In this document: in pieces, positions 32,186 through 35,905 of the stretch
How positions within the stretch are numbered: position 1 is the first letter of the stretch
Layout: the number at the start of each line of letters is the position of its first letter
Assembly (NCBI GenBank): GCA_013298165.1
Contig: JAAFJU010000024.1
Span: 1 to 45,527 of the forward strand
Direction: 5' to 3'
Length of the DNA: 45,527 nucleotides
Origin: Synechococcales cyanobacterium bin31.maxbin.ball.101
GTDB taxonomy: Bacteria > Cyanobacteriota > Cyanobacteriia > Leptolyngbyales > Leptolyngbyaceae
Position numbers and translations under genes: made by a program
The notes under the pieces: model-generated
Database searches by the model: none
What the model saw: only the letters and a program-made list of their open reading frames with translations
What the model was told of the DNA's origin: nothing

Positions 32186-32869
32186 CTAAGACAGAGAAGA
32201 AGGACTATCAACCCATAAACTCCAACTAGCCCTGGGATCGATCGTCAACGGCTGTCCCATGACGACTAAAAAATCCCGTTCACAAAGTAAGGCATAACGA
32301 TAATTGGAAAACTGTTGGCTGTCGATACTCATATACCGATTGAGTAAGCTTTCTAGAAGCTCAACAATCTGTCCTGACTTTTGGCTCCCTGCGCTCAAGA
32401 CCCAATCCGCATAAGCATGACGGGGTAAACCCAAAGAAATTAAGGACTGACCTAAAAAATGCAAGAGTCGAAAGCGAGGAACGATCGACGCTAAGATCAG
32501 CCCAAGTTCATCATTCCAAGCTGTGGAAATCAAAAAATCGGTATATCGCTGAATCACCGGATGAGGCGTCAACGGCATGGGAGAATCTCCCCATTTAGCC
32601 GCGATTTGGTGACGAACTCGGAGACTAGAGACGCTTTCACTCATCAACTGATGAAGTGCCGAAAACCCCTCCCAGTCAGGAGTTTTGGCAGCAGCAACGC
32701 CATAGGCTCTAGCACAGGCTTCCTGACAAAAAGACTCTTGACGCAAATATTGAATAAACTGATCCCTCGGTAAGGAACCGCCACTCAAATGTTGAATAAA
32801 AACACTGTTCAAACAAGCCTGGGTCAGATCCTCATTTGCGTACCATAGTTCTTCTGATCTCAGCAGCAT
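32186..32869 (-). CDS. TenA-family protein
   Basis: A 227-aa helical protein of the TenA/THI-4 family (thiamin salvage: aminopyrimidine aminohydrolase in the classical members). LLRSEELWYANEDLTQACLNSVFIQHL and the helix-rich FIQYLRQESFCQEACARAYG match the family. At the position where classical TenA has the substrate Asp (YLxQDYxY) it has Glu (YLRQESFC), so the enzyme may belong to a divergent branch. ATG 32869 is taken rather than 32890. The gene overlaps the FAD hydroxylase upstream on the same strand (stop at 32832), so both are likely coupled in translation. Confidence 0.75.
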   Translation of the reverse strand: MLLRSEELWYANEDLTQACLNSVFIQHLSGGSLPRDQFIQYLRQESFCQEACARAYGVAAAKTPDWEGFSALHQLMSESVSSLRVRHQIAAKWGDSPMPLTPHPVIQRYTDFLISTAWNDELGLILASIVPRFRLLHFLGQSLISLGLPRHAYADWVLSAGSQKSGQIVELLESLLNRYMSIDSQQFSNYRYALLCERDFLVVMGQPLTIDPRASWSLWVDSPSSLS

Positions 32870-34172
32870 CCTGTTTCTCCTGAATGGCAACAGAGCCGTA
32901 CCGCATAATGCGAGGCGATCGTCCTGTCAGTCCTTGCATCAGCCGCAGCACCCTCGATCGAATCGGCGCGACATGGTGCAAAACCCACAGAGAACTTCGT
33001 CTTAAAATTACAATGGGTAAGATTCGATTAGAGAAAACACGAGTTAAGGTGTCTGTTAATGCTAGCACTAGCAGATTCTCCCACATCCTCCACCGCTCAT
33101 ACTGTTTTAAAACCGACAAACTCCCAAGGTCTGCATGAGTTTCGTTCGATTTTTGCATGACATTTTGCAGGACATTGACTAAGGCTGCTGCATCCCGGAT
33201 TCCAAGGTTGATCCCTTGGCCGCCGACGGGATGACAACAATGGGCCGCATCACCAATCAACGCCAGTCCCGGCTGCACATATCTCGTACTGTGCAATAGT
33301 CGCACCGGAAAGACGGAAGGTTCTCCCACTAAGGTCAACTGGCCCATGTGATCGCCATATCGATTGCGCAATTCTGCCATAAAGTCCGACGGACTGAGAT
33401 TCAAAATTCGATCGGTGTCGGAGCTGAGGGCTGTCCAGACAATCCGACAGAGTCCATTGGGCAAGGGTAAAATCGCAAAGGGACCATCGGCCTGAAAGCG
33501 TTCGTAGGCGATTTGGTCATGGGGATATTCGGGCTGGATGAAGGCCACAACACAAGATTGCCAGTATTTCCAGCCGATGGTTTTAATCTGAGCGGCGGTG
33601 CGGAGGGGGGATTGGTGTCCGTCTGCGGCGATGACGAGGGCCGTCTTGAGTTGACGAGTTTGGCCGTCTTGATCGATCGTCACCAGAGTTTGGTGATTTA
33701 AGCGAACAGTTTCCAGTACCCGCGCTGGGCAGATCCAATCTACGTTGGGGAGTTGATGCAATTTTCCTTGAAGCGCGTCTAACAAAACCCGATGCTCTGC
33801 AACATAGCCGATCGTCTCTGCACCTAGATCTTCCGGCAAAAATTTGACAATCTTCCCATAGTTGCCATCGGAGAGTTGGACCGATCGGTAGGTCTCCACT
33901 TGAGGTCTGATGCTCTCCCATAATCCCAGATCGTCAAAGACTCGGGCCGAGAGAAGATTGATTGAGTAAGCTTGTCCGCGACTCACGGCAAAGGAGTTGG
34001 ATGCAGCTTCGACGATCGCCACCCTTAAGCCTGTTTGCCCTAGACCACAAGCTGCAACAGCCCCCACAATGCCCCCGCCCACGACGACGACATCATAATT
34101 AGGACAGCGGGTTTCAGCCTCGGAGCTTGGAACGTTCTGGTCAGTGAGTCGGTGGGTCGGGGTAAAAGTCAT
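32832..34172 (-). CDS. UbiH/VisC-type FAD-dependent hydroxylase
   Basis: A 446-aa flavoprotein monooxygenase. The Rossmann FAD motif is VVVVGGGIVGAVAACGLGQTG followed by LRVAIVEA. The second FAD motif is LALIGDAAHCCHPVGGQGIN, with GDAAH intact. The DG-type motif is VIAADGHQSPLR. Cyanobacterial members are relatives of UbiH/UbiF/VisC and may act in quinone biosynthesis (plastoquinone); substrate is not readable. Its 3' end overlaps the TenA-like gene by about 38 bases. Confidence 0.88.
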   Translation of the reverse strand: MTFTPTHRLTDQNVPSSEAETRCPNYDVVVVGGGIVGAVAACGLGQTGLRVAIVEAASNSFAVSRGQAYSINLLSARVFDDLGLWESIRPQVETYRSVQLSDGNYGKIVKFLPEDLGAETIGYVAEHRVLLDALQGKLHQLPNVDWICPARVLETVRLNHQTLVTIDQDGQTRQLKTALVIAADGHQSPLRTAAQIKTIGWKYWQSCVVAFIQPEYPHDQIAYERFQADGPFAILPLPNGLCRIVWTALSSDTDRILNLSPSDFMAELRNRYGDHMGQLTLVGEPSVFPVRLLHSTRYVQPGLALIGDAAHCCHPVGGQGINLGIRDAAALVNVLQNVMQKSNETHADLGSLSVLKQYERWRMWENLLVLALTDTLTRVFSNRILPIVILRRSSLWVLHHVAPIRSRVLRLMQGLTGRSPRIMRYGSVAIQEKQDAAEIRRTMVRK

Positions 34173-34367
34173 TGAGGTGATTCTATGGGGAGATTATTAA
34201 AATTATTTACATATCTTATTCTGTTCTGATTAGCAATGGAACGCAAGGGCTGAAATACGATCGGGCAGTTTTCCAATAATCCTTCTACGGGATGAGGGAA
34301 AGATCGCCCGATCGGATGACCACGCTAGGGGAAGGTGCCTGCTGAAACAACGGCTATTCTTAAGGGG

Positions 34368-34651
34368 TATAGAGCACAACTTAGACCTCGGGACACAGTG
34401 GATGGGCATTCCAATGAGTCTTGAGGTTTTTCACTTTAAAGGATTTAGTCAAGAGGTCAACCACCGATTCCCCTTGAAGTTAAAATCTAAAATCTTGTCT
34501 TCACCCGATCGGGTGAACTTACTGGGTGAAAAGCATCTACCTGAGTAGATGAAGTCCATTGGTAGAGTCAGCGTCTATCGTTATCAACGTATAGAGCACA
34601 GGCTTCGGATTAACAAGGGTGGGGGCATCCTTGTCAGTCCGAAGTTTTTTT
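34368..34651 (+). ncRNA. Candidate structured non-coding RNA
   Basis: The plus strand shows successive hairpins: the palindrome TTCACCCGATCGGGTGAA (34500-34517), CATCTAC-CTGA-GTAGATG (34534-34551) and CTAT-CGTT-ATC-AACG-T-ATAG near 34576, then an intrinsic terminator at 34603-34651. The 12-base direct repeat brackets the middle. It carries no features of tmRNA, RNase P RNA or SRP RNA that I can recognise, and 6S RNA could not be confirmed. The 5' end is not known; 34368 is a guess. Orientation is fixed by the terminator. Confidence 0.4.
34603..34651 (+). terminator. Strong intrinsic terminator
   Basis: CTTCGGATTAACAAGG (34603-34618) pairs with CCTTGTCAGTCCGAAG (34629-34644) over 16 positions with one G-U and one mismatch, and TTTTTTT follows (34645-34651). 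The T-run places it on the plus strand, where no protein gene ends, so it should end an RNA gene. The loop is ten bases and G-rich. Confidence 0.8.
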
Positions 34652-34663
34652 ATGGAATGCTAG

Positions 34664-35905
34664 CTACCAATCTCCCAAGTCATCGTCAGTCTCTTCTTCG
34701 ATCGGGTCGATTTTTTCAACTTTTTTTGATTTACGATCGGCTTTAGCTTTGGCTTGATTAATGGGAATAGCAGGCACTTCGATCGCGGGGGTTTCGAGAC
34801 TGTTAGATAATCCTGGATTCATTTCTGAGGATTCTTCAATGGTCAATCGAATGGTGCGGGAGAAGCCTTCACCATTTGGATCGCCGATTGTGATGTCGAT
34901 GGTGTCGCCGCAGAGTCGATCGAGGTGGGAAAGCAAGCCGCGCAGATGGGGTGTACTAGCTCCAGTATCGACGTAAAGGCGTTCTGAAAGCTGGTTCATT
35001 TTGCGCCAGGAATTGTGGAGTTTTGCGATCGTGTTTTCCAGAATTCCGGCTTGATTGACGAGTTCTGCGGCGGTGTTGAGGACGCCGAGACGCAGGGCTT
35101 CTTCGAGGGCGAGTTCTAGATCAATATTGGATTCCGTTAATGATTGAACTTGGTTTGCCCCTTCGAGATAACGGGCCAGATATTTGGCTTCGGCGGTGAC
35201 TTGCTTGAGGGTGTCGAGGTCAGGGCTTTCGGCCATGGCTTCGCGAATGGTGTCCTGGTGGATCTCCGGCAGGCGTTCCATTTGCTTGACGAGGGGAGCG
35301 ATGTAGCGCGGCGGGATGGTTTGGTCGGCGGCTTTCGATCGCAGTTCTTCAGGCAGTAAATCCGAGGTCATGGCGGTCCATTCGTCGGAGAGTTGTTTGA
35401 CTTCGCGGCGGGTGATTTTATGACCTTGTTTGGCGGAGTCGGCGATGACTTGCTGGACTTCGGGGGAGGATTGGGCCGTTTCGACAAAGGCGCGCTTGGT
35501 AAATTGATTGACATCTTCGGCTTCGAGGTAGCCGTCCCCGAGCAGTTGATCGGCGCTGTTGGCCAGTTCAATGAGGTTATAGGCGTGACTTTTACTGATT
35601 TCGCGATCTTTGAGCCAGTTCAGAAATCCAATGCTGCGAGTTTCACCTGCGACTTTTTCCCGATCGCGCACAGTTCGCAAGATTTTGCCGCGCCAAATGT
35701 CGGTTTGGAGGTCAAGCCGATCGCAGACTTGCCATGCGATTTCGATTTGTTGTTGAAAGTCGTAGGCACTCAGGGTTTCATCCTCTGGATCCGGAATCGG
35801 AAGTCCCAAGTCAAACGTGAAGTCGCCCTCAGCAAAATTCGAGAGGTTGATTTCGTTTTTTTTGGACGGGACGCTGTTCTTGGGTCGATCGATTGCCTGA
35901 ACCAT
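34664..35905 (-). CDS. Conserved protein of unknown function with HTH-like segment
   Basis: A 413-aa soluble protein that I do not recognise by name. Residues 90-120 (SIGFLNWLKDREISKSHAYNLIELA) read like a helix-turn-helix as found in DUF3102 or phage-derived regulators. RREVKQLSDEW and PPRYIAPLVKQMERLPEIHQ are further helical blocks. A coiled region (about 255-320) is followed by a beta-like part (CGDTIDITIGDPNGEGFSRTI). The last 50 residues are basic then acidic (KADRKSKKVEKID and EEETDDDLGDW), a typical disordered tail. It probably is a DNA-binding or chromosome-associated protein, but this is inference. Confidence 0.75.
   Translation of the reverse strand: MVQAIDRPKNSVPSKKNEINLSNFAEGDFTFDLGLPIPDPEDETLSAYDFQQQIEIAWQVCDRLDLQTDIWRGKILRTVRDREKVAGETRSIGFLNWLKDREISKSHAYNLIELANSADQLLGDGYLEAEDVNQFTKRAFVETAQSSPEVQQVIADSAKQGHKITRREVKQLSDEWTAMTSDLLPEELRSKAADQTIPPRYIAPLVKQMERLPEIHQDTIREAMAESPDLDTLKQVTAEAKYLARYLEGANQVQSLTESNIDLELALEEALRLGVLNTAAELVNQAGILENTIAKLHNSWRKMNQLSERLYVDTGASTPHLRGLLSHLDRLCGDTIDITIGDPNGEGFSRTIRLTIEESSEMNPGLSNSLETPAIEVPAIPINQAKAKADRKSKKVEKIDPIEEETDDDLGDW

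Follow-up and report, generated by a model that had tools for sequence, protein, structure and literature searches.

What is encoded in the 491-base gap at positions 34173-34663 of the 45,527-nucleotide stretch of Leptolyngbyaceae DNA analysed here (contig JAAFJU010000024.1; hereafter 'the window')? The gap holds no convincing protein gene, since only mechanical ORFs of 59 and 65 amino acids overlap it, and the sequence-only reading, which had likewise seen no plus-strand protein gene end there, proposed instead one independent, structured plus-strand RNA. Judged by comparison with related genomes, the gap appears to hold two side-by-side plus-strand genes for short regulatory RNAs, each with its own predicted promoter, operator and terminator. 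The features are as follows.

32832-34172, minus strand: UbiH-type FAD-dependent hydroxylase, 446 amino acids, divergent neighbour (NF005612, E 1.6e-168)
34173-34663, plus strand: the 491-base gap, candidate RNA region
34299-34335, plus strand: predicted operator for gene 1, AAAGATCGCCCGATCGGATGACCACGCTAGGGGAAGG, in the position usual for the family (alignment of 34 promoters)
34355-34360, plus strand: predicted -10 box of gene 1, TATTCT
34367-34431, plus strand: predicted sRNA 1, about 65 nt, 5' GUAUAGAGCACA then terminator hairpin (covariance model match 34311-34433, E 1.4e-20, this copy being in the training set; fold z = -3.35)
34383-34431, plus strand: terminator of sRNA 1 (stem 34383-34429, T5 34427-34431)
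34500-34532, no strand assigned: predicted extra upstream operator of gene 2, the palindrome TTCACCCGATCGGGTGAA (34500-34517) plus a GGGTGAA repeat
34534-34555, plus strand: predicted promoter-proximal operator box of gene 2, CATCTACCTGAGTAGATGAAGT
34576-34581, plus strand: predicted -10 box of gene 2, TATCGT, 7 nt before the motif
34589-34651, plus strand: predicted sRNA 2, about 63 nt, 5' GUAUAGAGCACA then terminator hairpin (covariance model match 34531-34652, E 4.1e-25, this copy also being in the training set; fold z = -7.05)
34600-34651, plus strand: terminator of sRNA 2 (stem 34600-34647, T7 34645-34651)
34664-35905, minus strand: 413-amino-acid ORF, convergent neighbour, without Pfam or NCBIfam match

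One layout, found twice

The window repeats one layout twice: the 12-mer GTATAGAGCACA, then a terminator hairpin. The two 12-mers, already noticed as a direct repeat, lie at 34367-34378 and 34589-34600, with a start-to-start spacing of 222 rather than the 221 given earlier; dinucleotide shuffling produced such a repeat in 15 of 2000 sequences and a palindrome of 18 bp, like the one reported and found again at 34500-34517, in 2 of 2000, so both exceed chance. The T7 terminator described before is real (arms 34603-34621 and 34626-34644, complementary at 16 of 19 positions or 84%, then T7 at 34645-34651), but it belongs to the second gene only, the first having a terminator of its own. This additional terminator, directly 3' of the first 12-mer, had escaped the sequence-only reading, as had a TANNNT box ahead of each 12-mer. 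A simple terminator scan did not list the terminator of sRNA 2; mismatches within the stem are the probable reason. The 413-amino-acid ORF ends 12 bp from this terminator. By sequence evidence, each copy has its own predicted promoter and its own Rho-independent terminator in an intergenic gap, as expected of a trans-encoded sRNA gene.

Searches against Rfam 15, 6S RNA included, gave no match at the gathering threshold anywhere in the window, all matches in the gap being sub-threshold, and none of the loci from 19 relatives reached that threshold either. The earlier view that the RNA fits no known class therefore stands. Conservation, covariation, an autonomous gene context and the absence of Rfam matches speak for an independent RNA gene, with the correction that there are two tandem genes, not one. 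As a separate observation, CGATCG occurs 290 times in the window against about 11 expected at equal base frequencies, which we take to be HIP1-like cyanobacterial bias.

Distribution of the RNA family

Recognition of the family started from a DNA search of 58 genomes. In one of these relatives (G026) both window flanks of the 12-mers match one contiguous place, where GTATAGAGCACA is directly followed by a terminator hairpin. The pattern of 12-mer plus T-run matched in 8 of 388 genomes of the class (reversed control: 1 genome), and the motif is followed by clear hairpins with unrelated stems in four genomes of the same family (G000, G010, G013 and G026). The other four matching genomes, G085, G151, G158 and G223, come from outside the family and were not counted among its members. 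Neither were the exact 12-mers of G000:C172 and G000:C346, which lack a clear terminator, and G010:C70 (L009) was dropped as a copy because its promoter does not fit.

Eight copies yielded an alignment (A3) and a covariance model (R1), which matched at E<=1 in 30 of the 42 family genomes; alignments of 33 and 35 matches followed, and from these a second model (R2). At E<=0.001 across the 388 class genomes, R2 found the RNA in 29 of the 42 genomes of the host family and in 0 of 346 other cyanobacteria; among the 13 family genomes lacking a match at this threshold are the three remaining genomes of the genus to which the window belongs. An RNA-only sequence profile that takes no account of base pairs (R3, built from 29 of the 35 rows) drew the same family border, its best outside match being partial (E 0.0015). 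The filters applied in both searches were on the strict side and could have let weak, distant relatives escape. A more stringent pattern run over named genome records matched at six loci, five of them from four cyanobacteria (Leptolyngbyaceae CSU_1_3, Leptolyngbya Prado105, Myxacorys almedinensis and Pseudanabaenaceae LEGE 13415), thus mostly Leptolyngbyaceae, and one from Chitinophaga, which is taken as a chance match; a single pattern for a viral copy gave no matches. The RNA family appears to be absent from Rfam and present in most of the host-family genomes searched, and no description of the RNA or its operator turned up in the titles and abstracts of open-licence PMC articles, figures lying outside such a text search.

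Tandem copies occur in G000 (2), G010 (2 and 3) and G019 (2), relatives being mostly single-copy. Two of the three tandem copies in G010 (L053:5580-5886, minus strand) have a near-identical promoter and motif and different hairpins, which suggests recent duplication with hairpin turnover. For the counts that follow, locus L074 duplicates G273: 34 of the 35 rows are distinct in the covariation count, and L074 was left out of the gene-context, operator-profile, far-upstream, operator-alignment and single-fold counts. L046, whose alignment row stops inside the hairpin, was left out of the unpaired-probability and single-fold counts.

A conserved predicted hairpin with a mostly unpaired 5' arm

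In the 35-row alignment all 14 modelled stem pairs show double, compensatory changes. Stem cells are paired in 80.7% of cases as compared to 61.8% after shuffling, sliding the partners by one base lowers the figure to 53.5-57.8%, and stem covariation is 0.480 against 0.214 in shuffled alignments, a value reached in 0 of 500. Since this alignment was fitted to the model and so favours its structure, we also folded 33 copies singly: z fell below -2 for 32 of the 33 RNAs and for 3 of 33 equal-length stretches further upstream. The 12-nt 5' arm has a mean unpaired probability of 0.74 (at least 0.5 in 30/33), and each RNA is predicted to begin with GTATAGAGCACA as a conserved and largely unpaired stretch. 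The consensus reads G(U/A)(A/G)UAGAGCACA, then a stem with the apex GGAUGGGGGCAUCC, then a U-run, with the motif variant UAGAGUACA in a sub-group.

What would such an arm do? Pairing with mRNA is, in our judgement, its probable role. The complement of the 5' motif, sought in 11 genomes, was found at 30 loci, of which 18 were read (the rest were sRNA loci), and no orthologous site near a start codon recurred among the 18. The pattern TGTGCTCTA-N0-30-ATG gave 155 counted matches in 14 genomes against 55 for the reversed control; by eye, the shared sites among the matches listed are tRNA-Thr antisense or coding-like sequence. Codon bias could explain the excess, and we therefore claim no target.

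This lack of a conserved antisense target, together with the conserved G-rich apex, would also suit an RNA that binds or titrates a protein, as a 6S-like or tRNA-like decoy, instead of pairing with mRNAs. The 5' core TAGAGCACA is indeed identical over nine bases to part of the tRNA-Thr(GGU) D-arm in the three genomes examined (L174, L175 and L176). The sub-group sequence TAGAGTACA breaks this likeness, however, nothing in the predicted RNA could serve as the second strand of a D-stem, and 6S RNA gave no match; we regard the decoy as unlikely and the D-arm likeness as a probable coincidence. A more far-reaching proposal, to which we give still less weight, is that the main output of a dedicated Leptolyngbyaceae regulator is a set of tandem sibling sRNAs, a lineage-specific Qrr-like RNA regulon, and that a 5' arm copying the tRNA-Thr(GGU) D-arm may both compete for a tRNA-binding protein and pair with mRNAs.

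Predicted promoter and operator

Upstream of the mRNA-pairing sRNAs that we favour, the family shares a fixed promoter layout. TANNNT precedes the motif in 34/35 aligned rows, at a distance of 7 nt in 24/35. Further upstream lies the full operator consensus, AAATTCACCC-n4-GGRTGA-nCC-n3-TGGATGAAGT, whose GAAG is separated from the -10 box by 21 nt in 26/35 promoters and by 20 nt in 9/35; the bases in between are unconserved, as one would expect of promoter DNA. No TTGACA-like -35 element is present (the best site has at least 4 mismatches in 30/35), which suggests an activator; that the genes are transcribed, and activated rather than repressed, we infer. A possible RNA hairpin (CUAUUC/GAAUAG) in the stretch from the -10 box to the motif was rejected, as no covariation supports it.

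An operator profile built from 32 relatives' boxes, without the window's rows, places four of its top five window matches in the gap. Of the 91,012 window positions scored, 34498-34519 and 34511-34532 in the extra operator of gene 2 rank first and fourth, the operator of gene 1 (34314-34335) ranks second, and the promoter-proximal box of gene 2 ranks fifth, its GAAG (34551-34554) standing exactly 21 nt before the -10 box. Compared with most relatives, gene 2 has its palindrome about 22 bp farther upstream, and a further box occupies the standard place; extra far-upstream operator sites are enriched across the family (18 vs 0.32 expected). The palindrome and the other upstream 'hairpins', earlier counted as parts of the RNA, fall outside the predicted transcripts, and TTCACCCGATCGGGTGAA behaves as promoter operator DNA, a predicted operator and not an RNA hairpin.

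These results bear on the reading of the gap as one long structured RNA, as first drawn from the sequence, in which the palindrome would form an RNA hairpin and the 12-mers would be repeats within the transcript. Folded as a whole, the 491-nt plus strand does reach z = -4.48, and one terminator only is obvious to the eye. Yet a strong terminator with its own U-run parts the halves, most relatives carry a single copy, the palindrome is the window's best position for the relatives' promoter operator, and the operator stands at a fixed distance from the -10 box while the 21 bases separating them are unconserved, all of which makes a single long RNA very improbable.

A search for a wider regulon returned 25 matches, two of them sRNA loci, against 26 for the reversed control, and we accordingly claim none. 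A version of the operator pattern with one base too many in a spacer (four N instead of the three of the consensus) gave 13 matches vs 1 in the control, none at an sRNA locus, and is uninformative; an earlier pattern, which matched in 2 of 7 genomes only, was too narrow.

Genomic context

A convergent yebC lies close by in 19/31 loci and a divergent UbiH-type hydroxylase in 9/31. The upstream flanking gene is on the same strand in 12/31 loci and on the opposite strand in 19/31; the RNA can therefore not be a fixed leader or 3' UTR, and the variety of neighbours indicates that the sRNA unit moves independently of them. In the window the convergent place is occupied by the 413-amino-acid ORF of no known family; an ORF of the same similarity cluster lies near one sRNA locus of G010. 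At E<=1e-20 yebC was found in none of the four genomes of the window's genus (G000-G003) and in 25 of 26 other cyanobacterial genomes searched, pointing to a possible genus-level loss. A total of 25 yebC loci from hit-less or outside-family genomes gave no match to the RNA nearby. Close to the sRNA of G027, a manganese riboswitch match at L044:1823-1951 (plus strand) is sub-threshold, at 31.7 bits against a gathering score of 45.

Terminators of convergent genes are common, and the frequent convergent yebC could suggest that the element acts in cis, serving a neighbouring gene as its terminator, attenuator or leader. A terminator, however, needs no conserved promoter, operator or 5' 12-mer, the RNA persists beside unrelated upstream genes on either strand, and with downstream genes convergent in 24/31 loci there is nothing to attenuate; we find a cis-acting element highly implausible. 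An insertion with a 12-bp target-site duplication, a transposon-like 210-bp element splitting one RNA gene, was considered because the contiguous match in G026 first suggested an empty site, and was dropped with hardly any probability left to it, given that each 12-mer has its own promoter and terminator, that the 12-mer alone is conserved at single-copy loci in many genomes, that G010 and G019 also carry tandem copies, and that no terminal inverted repeats were seen by eye at the edges.

Relation to known sRNAs

Autonomous sRNA genes remain the preferred reading. The Yfr1 motif, which we take to be ACTCCTCACAC with the core CTCCTCAC, set as ACUCCUCACAC between two hairpins, is found in 0/35 aligned copies; the Yfr2 loop motif, presumably GGAAACA, is absent from 35/35; and the NtcA box, assumed here to be GTAN8TAC, occurs in 0/35 promoters. 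By these features the RNA is not a member of Yfr1, Yfr2 or NsiR4. Yfr2-5 and the Qrr sRNAs of Vibrio are multi-copy siblings, a trait that the window family shares through its tandem arrays; we know of no sequence relation between them.

The closest likenesses are of form. Yfr1 is 65 nt long in one strain (PMC6202907) and pairs with mRNAs through a strictly conserved motif (PMC6974561); the window family resembles it as a short, autonomous gene with a conserved motif, but Yfr1 is reported from all cyanobacteria and the window family was found in one family only. The iron-stress sRNA IsaR1, given as 68 nt (PMC6202907), is similar in size and reported as conserved in cyanobacteria, in contrast to the 0/346 genomes outside the host family here; this comparison, like that with PsrR1, is an indirect one, by distribution at E<=0.001. 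NsiR4 is an sRNA under a specific transcription factor, NtcA (PMC9196836), whereas the window family carries a different operator and no NtcA box. By size and layout, the best analogy would be with trans-acting, mRNA-pairing sRNAs of the Yfr1 or NsiR4 type (PMC6202907, PMC6974561, PMC9196836).

A model for the locus, and its meaning

From comparative evidence we consider it likely that two sibling trans-acting sRNAs are encoded in tandem in the gap, and that they belong to an RNA family which the searches made place only within the host's family. The predicted RNA genes, their ends, the promoter geometry, the operator and the family are well supported by comparison. In the model that we propose, a putative DNA-binding regulator would bind the consensus operator, which ends beside the -35 region, and this one regulator would switch both sibling RNAs. 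RNA polymerase would start at the G of GTATAGAGCACA (or GAATAGAGCACA), about 7 nt past the TANNNT -10 box, and the hairpin and U-run would stop transcription. The product would be an RNA of 55-77 nt whose 5' arm, 12 nt long and unpaired, precedes a hairpin with a conserved G-rich apex, and this arm would pair with target mRNAs.

We found no sRNA study of this cyanobacterial group in the open-licence PMC literature. The locus adds to the group a well-delimited RNA family with a predicted start, end, promoter and operator. Recurrent tandem duplication combined with a long conserved operator points to a directly testable regulatory circuit, in which one operator could fish out the regulator and one 12-nt arm could find the targets.
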